A stretch of DNA of 15,000 nucleotides from Eimeria necatrix (Eukaryota; Apicomplexa; Conoidasida; Eucoccidiorida; Eimeriidae), in contig NW_013651682.1 in assembly GCF_000499385.1 (NCBI RefSeq), positions 7,059 through 22,058 on the forward strand, in the 5' to 3' direction. The position numbers and the translations under genes were made by a program. Shown here in pieces: positions 3,133 through 9,100 of this stretch; the stretch's first letter is position 1, and each line of letters opens with the position of its first letter. The notes beneath the pieces are model-generated. The model did no database searches, was not told where the DNA came from, and saw nothing but the letters and a program-made list of their open reading frames with translations.

Positions 3133-6100
3133 GTGAGACGTTCGTTAGCATACAGTGCGTAGAATCACAAGGGTTTAGGGTTTAGGGTTTAGGGTTTAGG
3201 GTTTAGGGTTTAGGGTTTGGGGTTTAGGGTTTAGGGTTTCGCGATGTTTCTCTTTTTCGCAGCCAGCCTATGCCGCTGGAGTATTTGCTGCTGCTGCTGC
3301 AGCTGAACTGCAGCAGCAGCGTGGACTGCCGCTAGCAGCAGCAGCAGCAGCAGGTGCTGCTGCTGCTCCTCTGAAGCTGCTGCAGCAGCAGCAGCAGCAG
3401 CAGCACCAATTGTGCGCTGGGGAGCTGCAGCAGATCTGGGGAGAAGCCGCATGCGTGCTTTCGGCAGCAGCAACAAAAACGGCAGCAGCAGCAGCAGCAG
3501 CAGCAGCAGCAGCACCTGCTGCTGCTGCTGCTGCTGCAGATAAAGAAGATGCTGCTAGCCTGCTGAGTCTCCTTGCAGACATGGCTTGCAGCAGGCGGGA
3601 GGCGCTGCAGCAGCAGCAGCAGCAGCAGCAAATGAACCTGAAAGCAGCAGCAGCAAATCTCTCGCAGTTTGTCCTTGGGGGCCCCTCAGCAGTTCAGCTG
3701 CGGGAAGAAACAGCAGCAGCAATGCGCTGCATAGCTCACTTAGCTAAGCAGCAGCAGCAGCAGCAGCAGCAGCAGCAGCAGCAGCTGCAGCAGCAGCAGC
3801 AGCAGATGGCTGCTGGTCGTGCTGCTGTCCCTGCTGCTGCGCCTGCTGCAAAGCTTGCGCAGCTGTACCCCCTCCAAGCGTATCCGCAGCAGCAGCAGCA
3901 GCAACTGCAGCAGCAGCAGCAACTGCAGCAGCAGCAGCAACTGCAGCAGCAGATACTCCGGCCAGCAATAGCAGCAGGAGGTAAACCCTAAACCCTAATT
4001 TCAAACCCCCAACCCCAAACCCTCGAGCATGGAAGCTTATAATTGATGGTCCAGGCCACGCTAGGGTTTGGGGATAAACGCTCACGGCGCGCCGCAGGGT
4101 TTAGGGTTTAGGGTTTAGGGTTTAGGGTTTAGGGTTTAGGGTTTAGGGTTTAGGGTTTGCGGCTAGGGTTTGGGACTGCCATGCACGAGCTGAAGCGGCG
4201 GCGCGCTGAAGGACTTCCAGAAGCAGCAGAAGCAGTTGAGGCCCTGGAAGCAGCAAAGGGCCAAACCCTAGCTCAGGCGAGGGTTTAGGGTTTAGGGTTT
4301 AGGGTTTAGGGTTTAGGGTTTGGGGCTCGAGGATGCAGGGAGAGGCGCACTCCTGCTACGGCTGCTATTGTTGCTACTGCTGCTGCTGCTGCTGCTGCTG
4401 CTGCTGCTTCTGTTGGCAGTGCTGCTGCTGCTGCTGCTGCTGCTGCTGCTGCTGCTTCTATTGGCAGTGCTGCTGCTGCTGCTGCTGCGTTAGAGGGTAC
4501 GTCCGCTTTGGGGTCTAGGGTTTAGGGTTTAGGGTTTAGGGGTTAGGGTTTAGGGTTTAGGGTTTAGGGTTTGGGTTTTTCGCAGCGGAAGGGCACAGAC
4601 GCCCCCGAACCGCAGGATCTGGCTGAGCACTACGCCGTAAACCCTAAACCCTAAACCCTAAACCCTAAACCCTAGATTGTAGAATACTCTCACTGACGGG
4701 CTTAGGGTTTAGGGTTTAGGGTTTAGCGCACTGCTGTTGACCTATCGGATTAAAAAGAGAAATGAAAAAATAAAAAAAATAAATAAAAGAATAAAAATAA
4801 ATGAAAAAATTAAATTAGATTAAAAATAAATAAAAATAAATGAAAATAAATAAAAGAATAAAAGAATAAAAATAAATAAATTAAATTAAAAATAAAACGC
4901 GGAAAGAGCAGCAAATAACAAACCCTAATTCAGGGAATAAAAAGCTAAAAAGCCCAAAACTGAAACTAAACAAAAAAGTAAAAACAAATAAATAAACAAA
5001 TAAATAAACAAATAAGCAAATAAACAAATAAATAAATAAATAAATAAATAAATAAATAAATAAATAAATAAATAAATAAATAAATAATAAATATAACAAT
5101 AATTAATTAATTAATTAATTAAATTTCATTTAATTTATTTCAGTCTCTTCTTGGAGGGGAAATTCAAACGGAAATAATTCGCTGGGTTTTGAGCATGAAG
5201 GTCACAGTAGACCCCCGAGAAAAAGTATGCTGCTGCTGCTGCTGCTGCTGCTGCTGCTGTTGCTGCTGCTGCTGCTGCTGCTGCTGCTGCTGCTGCTGCT
5301 GCTGCTGCTGCTGCTGCTGCTTCTGCTGCTGCTGCTGCTTCTGCTGGTGCTGATACTGCTGAGCCTGCTGTTGTTGCTGCTGCTTTTAAGCCTGCTGCTG
5401 CTGCTAAGCCTGCTGCTGCTGTTGCTGCTATGCTTGCTGGTGCTGCTGCTGCTGCTAAGCCTGGCGCTGCTGCTGCTGCTAAGCCTGGTGCTGCTGCTGC
5501 TGCTAAGCCTGGTGCTGCTGCTGCTGCTAAGCCTGCTGCTGCAAATGGAATCCTGCTGCTGGGGTCCTGCTGCAGGTGCTGCTGCTGCTAACCCTGCTGC
5601 TGCTGCTGCTGCTGCTTTTATGCCTGCTGCTGTTGCTGCTATTCTTGCTGCTGCTGCTGCTGCTGCTGTTACTTCGCCTCTAGGACCTATCAACTTATCA
5701 ATTGAAGTCAAAGAAATAAAATAAATAAATAAATAAATAAATAAATAATTTTAATAAATAAATTTAAATAAAATAAAATATTTTTATTTGTGCATTTGCT
5801 GCAGACAAGTGCCTTCGACATCGTTGGTCTGGAAAGCATAAAGAAGCTCTTGAGGTCGCCAAACCCTAAACCCTAAACCCTAAACCCTAAACCCTAAACC
5901 CTAATTGGTGGATCAGCTCTGTCGATCAATCAATAACCGCCTTATTTACCTTTGACTCATCTTTTATTAACTCATTATTTATTTATTTATTTATTTATTT
6001 ATTTATTTATTTATTTATTTATTTATTTATTTATTTATTTGTTTATTTATTTATTTTTAGAGACAAAATAATAAACCCCGTTTTACGCCCAGACCTCCAC

Positions 6101-9100
6101 GTGGGGCTCCACAAAGCCCCGCGGGGCATTTTGCTTTTTGGGCCCCCAGGAACAGGAAAAGTGAGGGTTTAGGGTTTAGGGTTTAGGGTTTAGGGTTTAG
6201 GGTTTAGGGTTTAGGGTTTAGGGTTTGGGGATTTGGAGCTGCGACTGTGCGGGGCTGGCCGGCTGTGTGCTTCCGGAGGTGGGCATTGTGAAGGGTTTAG
6301 GGTTTAGGGTTTACGGCTTATGGTTTAGGGTTTAGGGTTTAGGGTTTAGGGTTTAGGGTTTGTTTGCAGACCACGCTAGCCAAATGGATGGCGGCGGAGA
6401 GCGGCGCGCGCTTCTTCGAGGTATTCACAAACCCTAAACCCTAAACCCTAAGTGGCAAACCCTAAACCCTCATTCCCTGTCCTCGTAAACCCTAGACACT
6501 AAACCCTAAACTCTTAACCTCATCAGCGCCTAGGGTTTAGGGTTTAGGGTTTAGGGTTTAGGGTTTGGCTCGCAGGTGACCCCGTCTTCTGTTATTAGCA
6601 AATTTCACGGAGAAACAGAAAAACTGATTAAGGGGCTCTTCAAAGGTACACAAACCCTAAACCCTAAACCCTAAAACCTAAACCCTAGATTTTAAATCCT
6701 GAACCCTAAACCCTAAACCCTAGATTCTAAACTCTAGACCCTAAGCCCTAAACCCTCGGAGCGGTTTCTAAGATCTGACTCAGAACGCTGAACCCTCAAA
6801 GGCTACTCCAAACCCTAAACCCTAAACCCCAAACCCTAAACCCTAAACCTCAAATCCTAAACCCTAAACCCTAAACCCTTGTTTTGCTCAGTCGCTGCTC
6901 TCGAGAGCCCCTCTTTAATCTTCATTGACGAAATAGATTCTCTACTCGGAAAAAGGCGGGAGGTAAGCGCTAAACCCTAAACCCTAAACCCTAAACCCTA
7001 AACCCTAAACCCTAAATGTGACTCCTTAGGGCAACGTTTGGGGGCGTCTTTAGATGTTGAAAACTGAGCCGACGAGGCTTCCGCACAGGCCGAGGGTTTA
7101 GGGTTTAGGGTTTAGGGTTTAGGGTTTAGGGTTTAGGGTTTGTGTTGTAGAGGGAAGATGATGCGTCTATCCGGATGAAAAATCAACTTCTGCAGATGAT
7201 GGTCAGCAACTGCGGCTGCTGCTGCTGCTGCTGCTGCTGTTGCTGCTGCTGTTGTTGCTGCTATTGTTGCTGCTGCTGTTACTGCTGTCGCTGCTACAAC
7301 TGTTGCTGCTGCTGCTGCTGCCGCTTCTGCAGCTGTTGCTGCTGCTGTTGCTGCTGGTGACGTTGCTGTTGCTGCTGCTTTCACTGGTCTTGCTGCTGCT
7401 GCTGCTGCTGCTGCTGCTGCTGCAGGACGGATTGAGCAGCAGCAGCAGCAGCACCATTATTGTTGTGGGCGCCACCAACAGACCAGATATGCTAGATGAC
7501 GTAAGCTGCTGCTGCTGCTGTTGCTGCTGCTGCTTCTTCTGCTGCTGCTGCTGCCCTTGTTCGTTGGCTGCACATGCTGCTGCTGCTTCTGCTGCTGCTG
7601 CTTCTGCTGCTGCTGCTGCTGCCCTTCTTCGTTGGCTGCAGATGCTGCTGCTGTTGCTTTCGTTGACTGATTGCTACTGCTGCTTGTGCTGCCACAGGTT
7701 TTAATTTGCTGCTGCTTAGAAGCCCTTTTCACTCTAGGGTTTAGGGTTTAGGGTTTAGGGTTTAGGGTTTAGGGTTTCTGTACAGGCAGCAGTGCGGCGC
7801 CTGTCTCGGCGTGTTTTGGTGCCGTTGCCCGACGAGGATACGAGAGCAAAAATTATCCGGTAAATCAGGGTTTAGGGTTTAGGGTTTAGGGTTTAGGGTT
7901 TGGAGGTGCTGTTTGAAGAATCCAACTAGGGTTTAGGGTTTAGGGTTTAGGGTTTAGGGTTTAGGGTTTAGGGTTTAGGGTTTAGGTTTTAGCGCTGCGT
8001 CCGCGGTGCACAGGCAGCTACTTGATTCGCAAACCCCTGCAGGATGCCGGCTTACTGACCAGGTGCGTTGAGGGTTTAGGGTTTAGGGTTTAGGGTTTAG
8101 GGTTTAGGGTTTAGGGTTTGGGGTTTGGGGTTTAGGGTTTGGGGTTTAGGGTTTGGCTTGTGCGCGTCTCTCAATATTGACCCCAATCCTTTAGTTAGCA
8201 ATTCTCATCAGTTTCTTCCTGATTATTTATTTATTTATTTATTTATATATTTATTTATTTATTTGTTTATTTATTTAATTCTTATTTATTATTAATTAAT
8301 TAATTAATTAATTAATTTATTTATTTATTTATTTATTTATCATTCACGCTTTTATTCGTTTGCTGCCCACCAGCCAGCCATACCTCCATGCAAAAAAAAA
8401 AATAAATAAATGAATAAATAAATTAAATAAATCAATAAATAAATAAATGAAATAATAAATAAGTAAATAAATAATAATAAATAATGAGAGTATAAAAAAC
8501 AAAATAAAATAAATAAAAAAATAAAAACAAAACAAAATAAAGCAAACCACAGCAAAACAAAATGAAATTAAACAAAAGTAATTTGAATTAAATATAAATA
8601 AAACAAAACAAAACAAAATAAAATAAAATAAAATAAAATAAAATAAAATAAAATAAAATAAAATAAAATAAAATAAAATAAAATAAAATAAAATAAAATG
8701 AATTTTATTTTCAGGAATTAAAATCTCTGAGTCAAAAACTCGAGGGCTGGAGCGGCTCAGACATTCGGGTATTGTGTTCTGCAGGTAATTTAATTTAATT
8801 AAATTAATTAAATTAATTAAATTTAATTAATTAATTTAATTTGATATAATTTAATCAGTTTAATTCATTTAATTAAATTAATTAAATTAATTAAATTAAA
8901 TTAATTTAACTAAGTTCATTTTATTCATTTAATTAAATAGAATTTAAGTTCAATTTAATCAACTTAATTTAATTAATTTAATTTAATTAAATTAATTAAA
9001 TTAATTTTTGTAGCTAATATAATTAGTTTAATTAATTTAATTTAATTAATTTAACGTATTTAATTTAATTAATTAAATTTAATTTAATTCACCTTGATTA

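Follow-up and report, generated by a model that had tools for sequence, protein, structure and literature searches.

What sets the point at which a simple-repeat tract stops inside an intron? The question is raised by a 15,000-nucleotide stretch of Eimeria necatrix DNA (the window; positions 7059-22058 of contig NW_013651682.1 in assembly GCF_000499385.1, which comprises 44.0 Mb in 1148 contigs), much of which is taken up by arrays of TTTAGGG, the coccidian telomere unit, by CTG/CAG runs and by TTTA-type runs. The window contains a gene for an AAA ATPase (Pfam AAA, E 3e-39), whose best named relatives are apicomplexan, several of them annotated katanin/fidgetin-like, and which shares 53-73% identity with seven aligned homologues. 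A reading of the window from its sequence alone had noted that the telomere-type arrays of this gene end a fixed short distance from its splice sites. We show that repeat tracts lie flush with the splice sites at both ends of introns, that this holds for two unrelated repeats (the heptamer and CTG/CAG), and that the pattern extends beyond the window to unlinked genes (23 heptamer introns in nine genes).

Repeat tracts flush with splice sites

Exons were set by spliced alignment of the window against five homologues, using GT-AG introns only, BLOSUM62, a mild splice-consensus bonus and an aligner blind to repeats. From 5144 onward homology defines the exons of the ATPase and 12 introns between 5225 and 10990, all of which carry a repeat tract. 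The five homologues agree on the same 12 introns where they overlap, save two acceptors (introns 7860-8013 and 9967-10990) that are shifted in one homologue each. The protein alignment is continuous, without indels, across most junctions, and intron 5225-5804 has weak local support on one side. Introns 1-4 of the sequence-only reading fall in the unconserved N-terminal part, ahead of the homology-checked set that begins at 5225; its numbering was matched to ours by distances (5855 is intron 6 and 8063 is intron 14), so that the correspondence is itself inferred.

Distances were counted with GT included, and the count stopped at the letter that opens an exact heptamer run. By this rule the donor gaps of introns 6, 7, 8, 9, 10, 13 and 14 are 6, 3, 8, 6, 7, 7 and 8 bases, against 6, 4, 8, 6, 9, 8 and 9 in the earlier reading, the differences arising because the letter chosen to start the array differs. 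The acceptor gaps of introns 7, 8, 10 and 12 (8, 9, 9 and 8) are identical in both, and that of intron 13 is 27 under the exact-run rule as opposed to 23. The tight proximity thus stands, but the word "fixed" is too strong: flush donor gaps span 1-8 bases and flush acceptor gaps mostly 5-13.

The same aligner was applied to four CCT chaperonin genes and ten further AAA genes on other contigs, and the sampled DNA comes to about 286 kb (286,460 bases). Fifteen genes contributed the 68 introns of the kept set, of which 46 have at least one of the three tract types (heptamer, CTG/CAG, A/T) and 22 have none; the 23 introns with heptamer arrays come from nine genes, each on its own contig. Sixty-six introns were accepted automatically, four were dropped (window 4235, two alternative junctions in locus L037, and L039 2349), and six below the support threshold of 8 (support 0-7) were added by hand (window 5225 and 7860, L029 1013, L032 487, L042 775, L044 1293); four of these six have heptamers, all four flush at the donor. 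Five DEAD-box genes, mostly repeat-poor by their junctions, do not enter the statistics on the 68 introns; L047, L049 and L050, three of these genes, served for intron density only.

To obtain a null, each intron had its arrays re-placed at uniform random positions within its free space, in 20,000 draws. In 18 of 23 introns the first heptamer array starts within 9 bases of the intron start (null mean 3.2, maximum 11); in 10 of the 23 the distance from the last array to the exon is at most 10 bases (null mean 3.5, maximum 10 introns). Seven of the 23 are flush at both ends (null mean 0.6, maximum 4). At least one flush end (donor within 9 or acceptor within 13 bases) is present in 22 of the 23. 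The sorted donor gaps read 1, 3, 3, 5, 5, four of 6, five of 7 and four of 8, followed by 175, 234, 271, 375 and 800. In the unedited intron set, 14 donors and 10 acceptors are flush among 20 heptamer introns (null maximum 10 each). In the 68-intron set the result is robust when the minimum array length is varied from 14 to 35 and the threshold from 9 to 20 bases. The expectation that the distances would prove tighter than chance is therefore borne out, the gaps in the pooled genes being far narrower than under re-placement.

The window taken alone gives 7 of 9 flush donors (null mean 1.7, maximum 6) and 4 of 9 flush acceptors (null mean 1.8, maximum 7), the latter no proof by itself; in the eight other genes 11 of 14 donors are flush (null mean 1.5, maximum 7), as are 6 of 14 acceptors (null mean 1.6, maximum 7). 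Since the acceptor counts with the window alone and without it lie within the null maxima, the acceptor side needs the pooled set. For any repeat type, 30 of 46 donors and 29 of 46 acceptors are flush (null maxima 17 and 18). Phase 0 is found in 25 of the 46 repeat introns and 7 of the 22 repeat-free ones, a difference that is not significant (p=0.12).

The heptamer holds no privileged role, as CTG/CAG tracts behave likewise: of the 26 introns that carry them, 11 have such a tract flush at the donor and 15 at the acceptor (null maximum 10 each). An intron often has unlike repeats at its two ends, as in 7501-7785 (CTG at 4 bases, heptamer at 8) and in L035 789-1171 (heptamer at 8, CTG at 2).

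A check free of gene models was made across the assembly, where exact 21-mers of the heptamer number 17829 + 17599, internal telomere-type repeats that qualify as interstitial. GGGTTT array ends whose next base is not A occur 9291 times. CAG lies 3-9 bases past the 3' end of sense arrays in 2148 matches and 10-16 bases past it in 1465, whereas the control CTG, of the same composition, is flat (1513 and 1537). The near/far odds ratio of CAG against CTG is 1.49 (p about 1e-15); these counts are of matches, so that one array end may count twice.

Table 1. Exons of the window ATPase and the heptamer arrays at their edges (window positions; sense and antisense refer to the transcript)
Feature	Position	Strand	Evidence
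Exon (SLLGGEIQTEII..DPREK), katanin/fidgetin-like AAA ATPase	5144..5224	+	spliced alignment, protein alignment
Exon	5805..5854	+	spliced alignment
Antisense heptamer array (AAACCCT on transcript strand), intron start 6 bases away	5861..5904	-	array and intron tables
Exon with Walker A (GPPGTGK)	6061..6160	+	domain match, spliced alignment
Sense heptamer array, intron start 3 bases away	6164..6226	+	intron table
Sense heptamer array, exon 8 bases on	6292..6361	+	intron table
Exon	6370..6420	+	spliced alignment
Antisense heptamer array, intron start 8 bases away	6429..6470	-	intron table
Sense heptamer array, exon 9 bases on	6531..6566	+	intron table
Exon	6576..6645	+	spliced alignment
Antisense heptamer array, intron start 6 bases away	6652..6687	-	intron table
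Antisense heptamer array, exon 12 bases on; sole antisense one among 12 acceptor-side heptamer tracts	6810..6879	-	
Exon with Walker B (FIDEIDS)	6892..6962	+	domain match, spliced alignment
Antisense heptamer array, intron start 7 bases away; then 76 unique bases	6970..7016	-	intron table
Sense heptamer array, exon 9 bases on	7093..7141	+	intron table
Exon	7151..7201	+	spliced alignment
Exon; preceding intron ends in CTG tract flush with acceptor (2 bases)	7426..7500	+	spliced alignment
Sense heptamer array, exon 8 bases on; CTG (4 bases) at donor end of same intron	7735..7777	+	
Exon	7786..7859	+	spliced alignment
Sense heptamer array, intron start 7 bases away	7867..7901	+	intron table
Sense heptamer array, exon 27 bases on	7927..7986	+	intron table
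Exon	8014..8062	+	spliced alignment
Sense heptamer array, intron start 8 bases away	8071..8154	+	intron table
Exon	8715..8784	+	spliced alignment
Exon	9851..9966	+	spliced alignment
Last exon, ...EEHGVK stop	10991..11059	+	spliced alignment

Strand choice and splice signals at tract edges

Counted by tracts, the T-rich strand lies on the transcript in 31 of 34 cases at acceptors (31:3) and in 56 of 96 in intron interiors (56:40; Fisher p=0.0003). At donors it does so in 23 of 33 (23:10), which does not differ from the interior (p=0.30); acceptors and donors differ at p=0.03. By repeat type, acceptor heptamers are 11 sense and 1 antisense and donor heptamers 10 sense and 8 antisense, and CTG against CAG is 16:0 at acceptors, 12:2 at donors and 30:15 in interiors. 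It had been suggested that the heptamer takes part in splicing, through its GGG triplets and through the TTT stretch near the acceptor. On the donor side, where an intronic G-run enhancer would favour the G-rich strand, the 10:8 ratio shows no such preference. On the acceptor side orientation does matter, but CTG tracts share it, and it therefore looks like an effect of the T-rich strand rather than of the heptamer.

The proposal that arrays extend up to a functional limit fared better. Flush sites leave free GT and up to about 6 bases at the donor, and the last 5-9 bases at the acceptor. Sense heptamers place TTTAG every 7 bases, yet sense is the favoured strand at acceptors. A heptamer array comes to within 30 bases of the acceptor in 14 introns. 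In 10 of these just 8-12 AG-free bases separate the true AG from the nearest one upstream, and in 13 that upstream AG is only 8-26 bases away. Repeat-free introns (n=22) have a median AG-free stretch of 25 bases and a minimum of 10, apart from one case of 3. CTG-ended introns have 28-246 AG-free bases (at least 28 in 16 of 16, median 114).

The scanning logic by which the spliceosome chooses its AG is established, and introns with long AG-exclusion zones and distant branch points are a known concept. A sense array often brings its decoy TTTAG as close as 8-12 bases to the true AG; given this spacing and the scanning logic, sense-heptamer acceptors probably have their branch point in the last units of the array. 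It would be the A of one of the last heptamers, and the array would serve as both branch-point and pyrimidine region. In CTG-ended introns, where the tract has no A and the AG-free zone is long, the branch point should sit farther upstream, beyond the CTG tract. These introns resemble distant-branch-point introns in their AG-free zone; the difference is that the zone is made here by a simple-repeat tract, and heptamer-ended introns are the opposite case.

The match of donors to U1 (out of 9) is 6.0 beside the heptamer, 5.8 beside CTG and 6.7 in repeat-free introns (p=0.07 and 0.02). As a separate observation, donors of repeat-bearing introns are degenerate at +3 (A 28%, C 26%) and have C at +6 in 54%, and repeat-free donors have A at +3 in 64% and T at +6 in 45%. 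A putative hairpin between an antisense donor array and a sense acceptor array was considered and set aside; such pairs are present (6421-6575 and 6963-7150 are examples), but so are sense-sense pairs (6161-6369).

Explanations for the position of the tracts

The reading that we favour, and to which we give about an even chance, combines gain of repeats at exon edges with a splicing filter. Heptamer and CTG/CAG tracts would be gained or regrown preferentially at exon edges, as their position suggests, and purifying selection on splicing would fix the exact stop of each tract by protecting the U1-pairing stretch (GT and about 6 bases more), the final 5-9 bases of the intron and some 8-12 AG-free bases. 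As a guess, the edge could be targeted through breaks or repair tracts whose ends coincide with the limit of exon homology or of an RNA:DNA hybrid. Strand choice and AG spacing at acceptors support the filter. A bolder version, which we consider unlikely, would make the edge tracts a working part of exon recognition: they would supply the branch point and pyrimidine region of acceptors, unrelated repeats being interchangeable, and would owe their placement to a process able to recognise exon boundaries in DNA, such as repair ending at exon homology or an RNA:DNA hybrid.

Several points weigh against gain at exon edges with a splicing filter. Its edge-directed gain is inferred from position only, because random gain with a deletion ratchet fell short of the observed flushness in a toy simulation, which is not proof. 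Of 13 introns with A/T runs of at least 16 bases, 1 has a flush donor and 4 a flush acceptor, counts that the null covers (maxima 6 and 5), and T-rich A/T tracts at acceptors show a weak tendency only. At a threshold of 6 bases donors are still significant and acceptors fail, and the strand bias of acceptor against donor for heptamers alone is borderline (p=0.049). The slightly lower U1 match beside tracts is also what functional compensation would predict. The modelled exon borders rest on protein homology. The genome-wide donor counterpart, ACC (G|GT before an antisense array) 2-8 bases past the array end (527) against 9-15 bases (428), is a weak signal with no composition control, and the profile of GT and AG around the edges of 135 arrays has no clear splice peak, we think because many of these arrays lie outside introns of known strand.

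It is possible, though in our judgement rather unlikely, that the tracts are selected exon-definition elements, retained since their G-runs, CUG or U-rich sequence help to mark short exons with degenerate splice sites in repeat-embedded genes. The median length of heptamer tracts is indeed greater where they are flush (45, n=30) than in the interior (34, n=17; p=0.004), and the weaker donors beside tracts, the strand choice at acceptors and the preference for CTG over CAG at donors also fit. However, the strand choice at donors does not exceed that of the interior, the near-equal donor heptamers are odd for an element read as sequence, and unrelated repeats would need to share one job. Somewhat less probable is a neutral ratchet, in which repeats are gained at random, deletions erode the spacer until the array meets the splice signal, and slippage regrows the array; this includes the idea that repeats replaced intron interiors up to the limit. 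The ratchet requires no targeting and accounts for several repeat types and for independent ends, and decayed heptamers are present in the interiors of heptamer introns (sense near-matches 135 against 51 in shuffled sequence, with 41 against 43 in repeat-free introns; antisense 49 against 18). However, in a toy simulation meant as exploration and not as a fit, no more than 16% of donors were flush under any of six parameter sets, and five of the sets gave far overlong introns. The donor gaps leap from 8 to 175 in the curated set, with a single value of 45 between them in the uncurated one, and the stretch between edge tracts is not eroded: over the 21 introns in which tracts of whatever type are flush at both ends, its median is 180 bases (range 60-949, inner tracts included). 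Heptamer introns have a median length of 285, of which 128 bases are unique, and this unique part is not significantly different from the whole length of repeat-free introns (median 178; p=0.18). Repeats are added to introns rather than replacing their interiors.

Birth of introns from repeat insertion had also been suggested from the sequence alone; as an introner-like process, with the insertion edges as splice sites, it is very improbable. It draws on the arrays at intron edges and on a sense unit that contains GT and TTTAG. Intron density, however, is equal, at one per 53.8 amino acids in eight repeat-rich genes against one per 50.8 in seven repeat-poor genes (counts and aligned lengths were entered by hand, with one dubious intron each omitted in L036, L041 and L047, and L038, L039, L040, L046 and L048 excluded wholly as mixed or less certain models). 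Unlike repeats stand at the two ends of many introns. An all-against-all comparison of 68 masked intron bodies revealed no shared intron family: the 48 pairs at E<=1 are all short and weak, and the best of them (0.002) we trace to a 12-base palindrome, GTGTACGTACAC. Junction direct repeats that might mark target-site duplication are no longer in heptamer introns (0-6 bases) than in repeat-free ones (0-7). The density, intron-body and junction results thus argue against such births, and the lack of shared bodies also led us to reject a whole-intron mobile element. An artefact of gene models or assembly seems hardly credible. In its favour, the borders come from protein homology, and the assembly is a draft with N runs inside some loci; nevertheless, up to five homologues concur on borders, the nine genes with heptamer introns each lie on a separate contig, identical modelling of repeat-poor genes gives ordinary introns, and the genome-wide CAG signal is independent of gene models.

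Related systems and wider meaning

Interstitial telomeric sequences are reportedly inserted during double-strand-break repair in primates and rodents. The arrays described here are alike in being telomere-type arrays inside chromosomes, and differ in their positional link to splice sites, which CTG tracts have as well. In Eimeria falciformis the telomere-like heptamer AAACCCT/AGGGTTT has been described in 6-14 copies (PMC4287421), and in E. tenella bands of simple repeats alternate with repeat-poor stretches (PMC9131526). The units (CAG, AAACCCT/AGGGTTT), array sizes and banding of those Eimeria repeats match ours; position relative to splice sites is not described in the portions of the two accounts that were available (PMC4287421, PMC9131526). 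Among the matches listed in the literature searches, titles and abstract openings hold nothing on repeats flush with splice sites in Eimeria, which does not show absence from print. Introner elements are a feature of Amoebophrya, Micromonas and Aureococcus, and the likeness lies in repeat motifs at the intron ends of another alveolate (PMC7789003). In contrast to introners, the E. necatrix introns have no shared family, no excess direct repeats and unchanged density, as judged from GT-AG introns only, non-canonical introns not having been looked for.

Some further observations concern the repeats and their surroundings. Array ends have a preferred phase, 88 of 135 finishing on AGGGTTT and 98 of 135 starting on AGGGTTT or TAGGGTT in a set that includes loci not picked for genes; this could mark how arrays form, for example at a telomerase template boundary. 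The palindrome GTGTACGTACAC is found at window positions 41-52 and 13466-13477, and also in L018, L040, L046 and others. It occurs 36 times in the 286,460 sampled bases, mostly with a preceding G, against 0.017 expected by composition and none for six control 12-mers of similar make-up. Copies stand directly before the acceptor CAG of modelled introns in L040 (1420) and L046 (1355), and in tandem in L018 and L046. The adjacent blocks 2204-2407 and 2409-2621 of the window recur on contig C1100 (L028 8308-8724) at 98% identity and in swapped order, with joints that coincide with heptamer arrays, which points either to a permuted tandem unit or to recombination at arrays. Four genes (L037, L041, L043, L045) have no repeat tract in any accepted intron (lengths 94-513), and such repeat-free genes beside repeat-laden ones in one genome are in line with the banded organisation of Eimeria genomes.

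Intronic repeats are usually treated as filler; here the position of unrelated repeats, in unlinked genes, is bound to the exon edge, and the genome-wide count suggests hundreds of cases. Each case is a natural test of the minimal sequence required by a spliceosome at either intron end, of the capacity of a 7-base repeat to act as a branch point, and of whether any mutational process finds exon edges in DNA. In practical terms, repeat masking in Eimeria-like genomes would reach right to the splice site. The flush fit points to an unexplained rule on where repeats are gained or tolerated.

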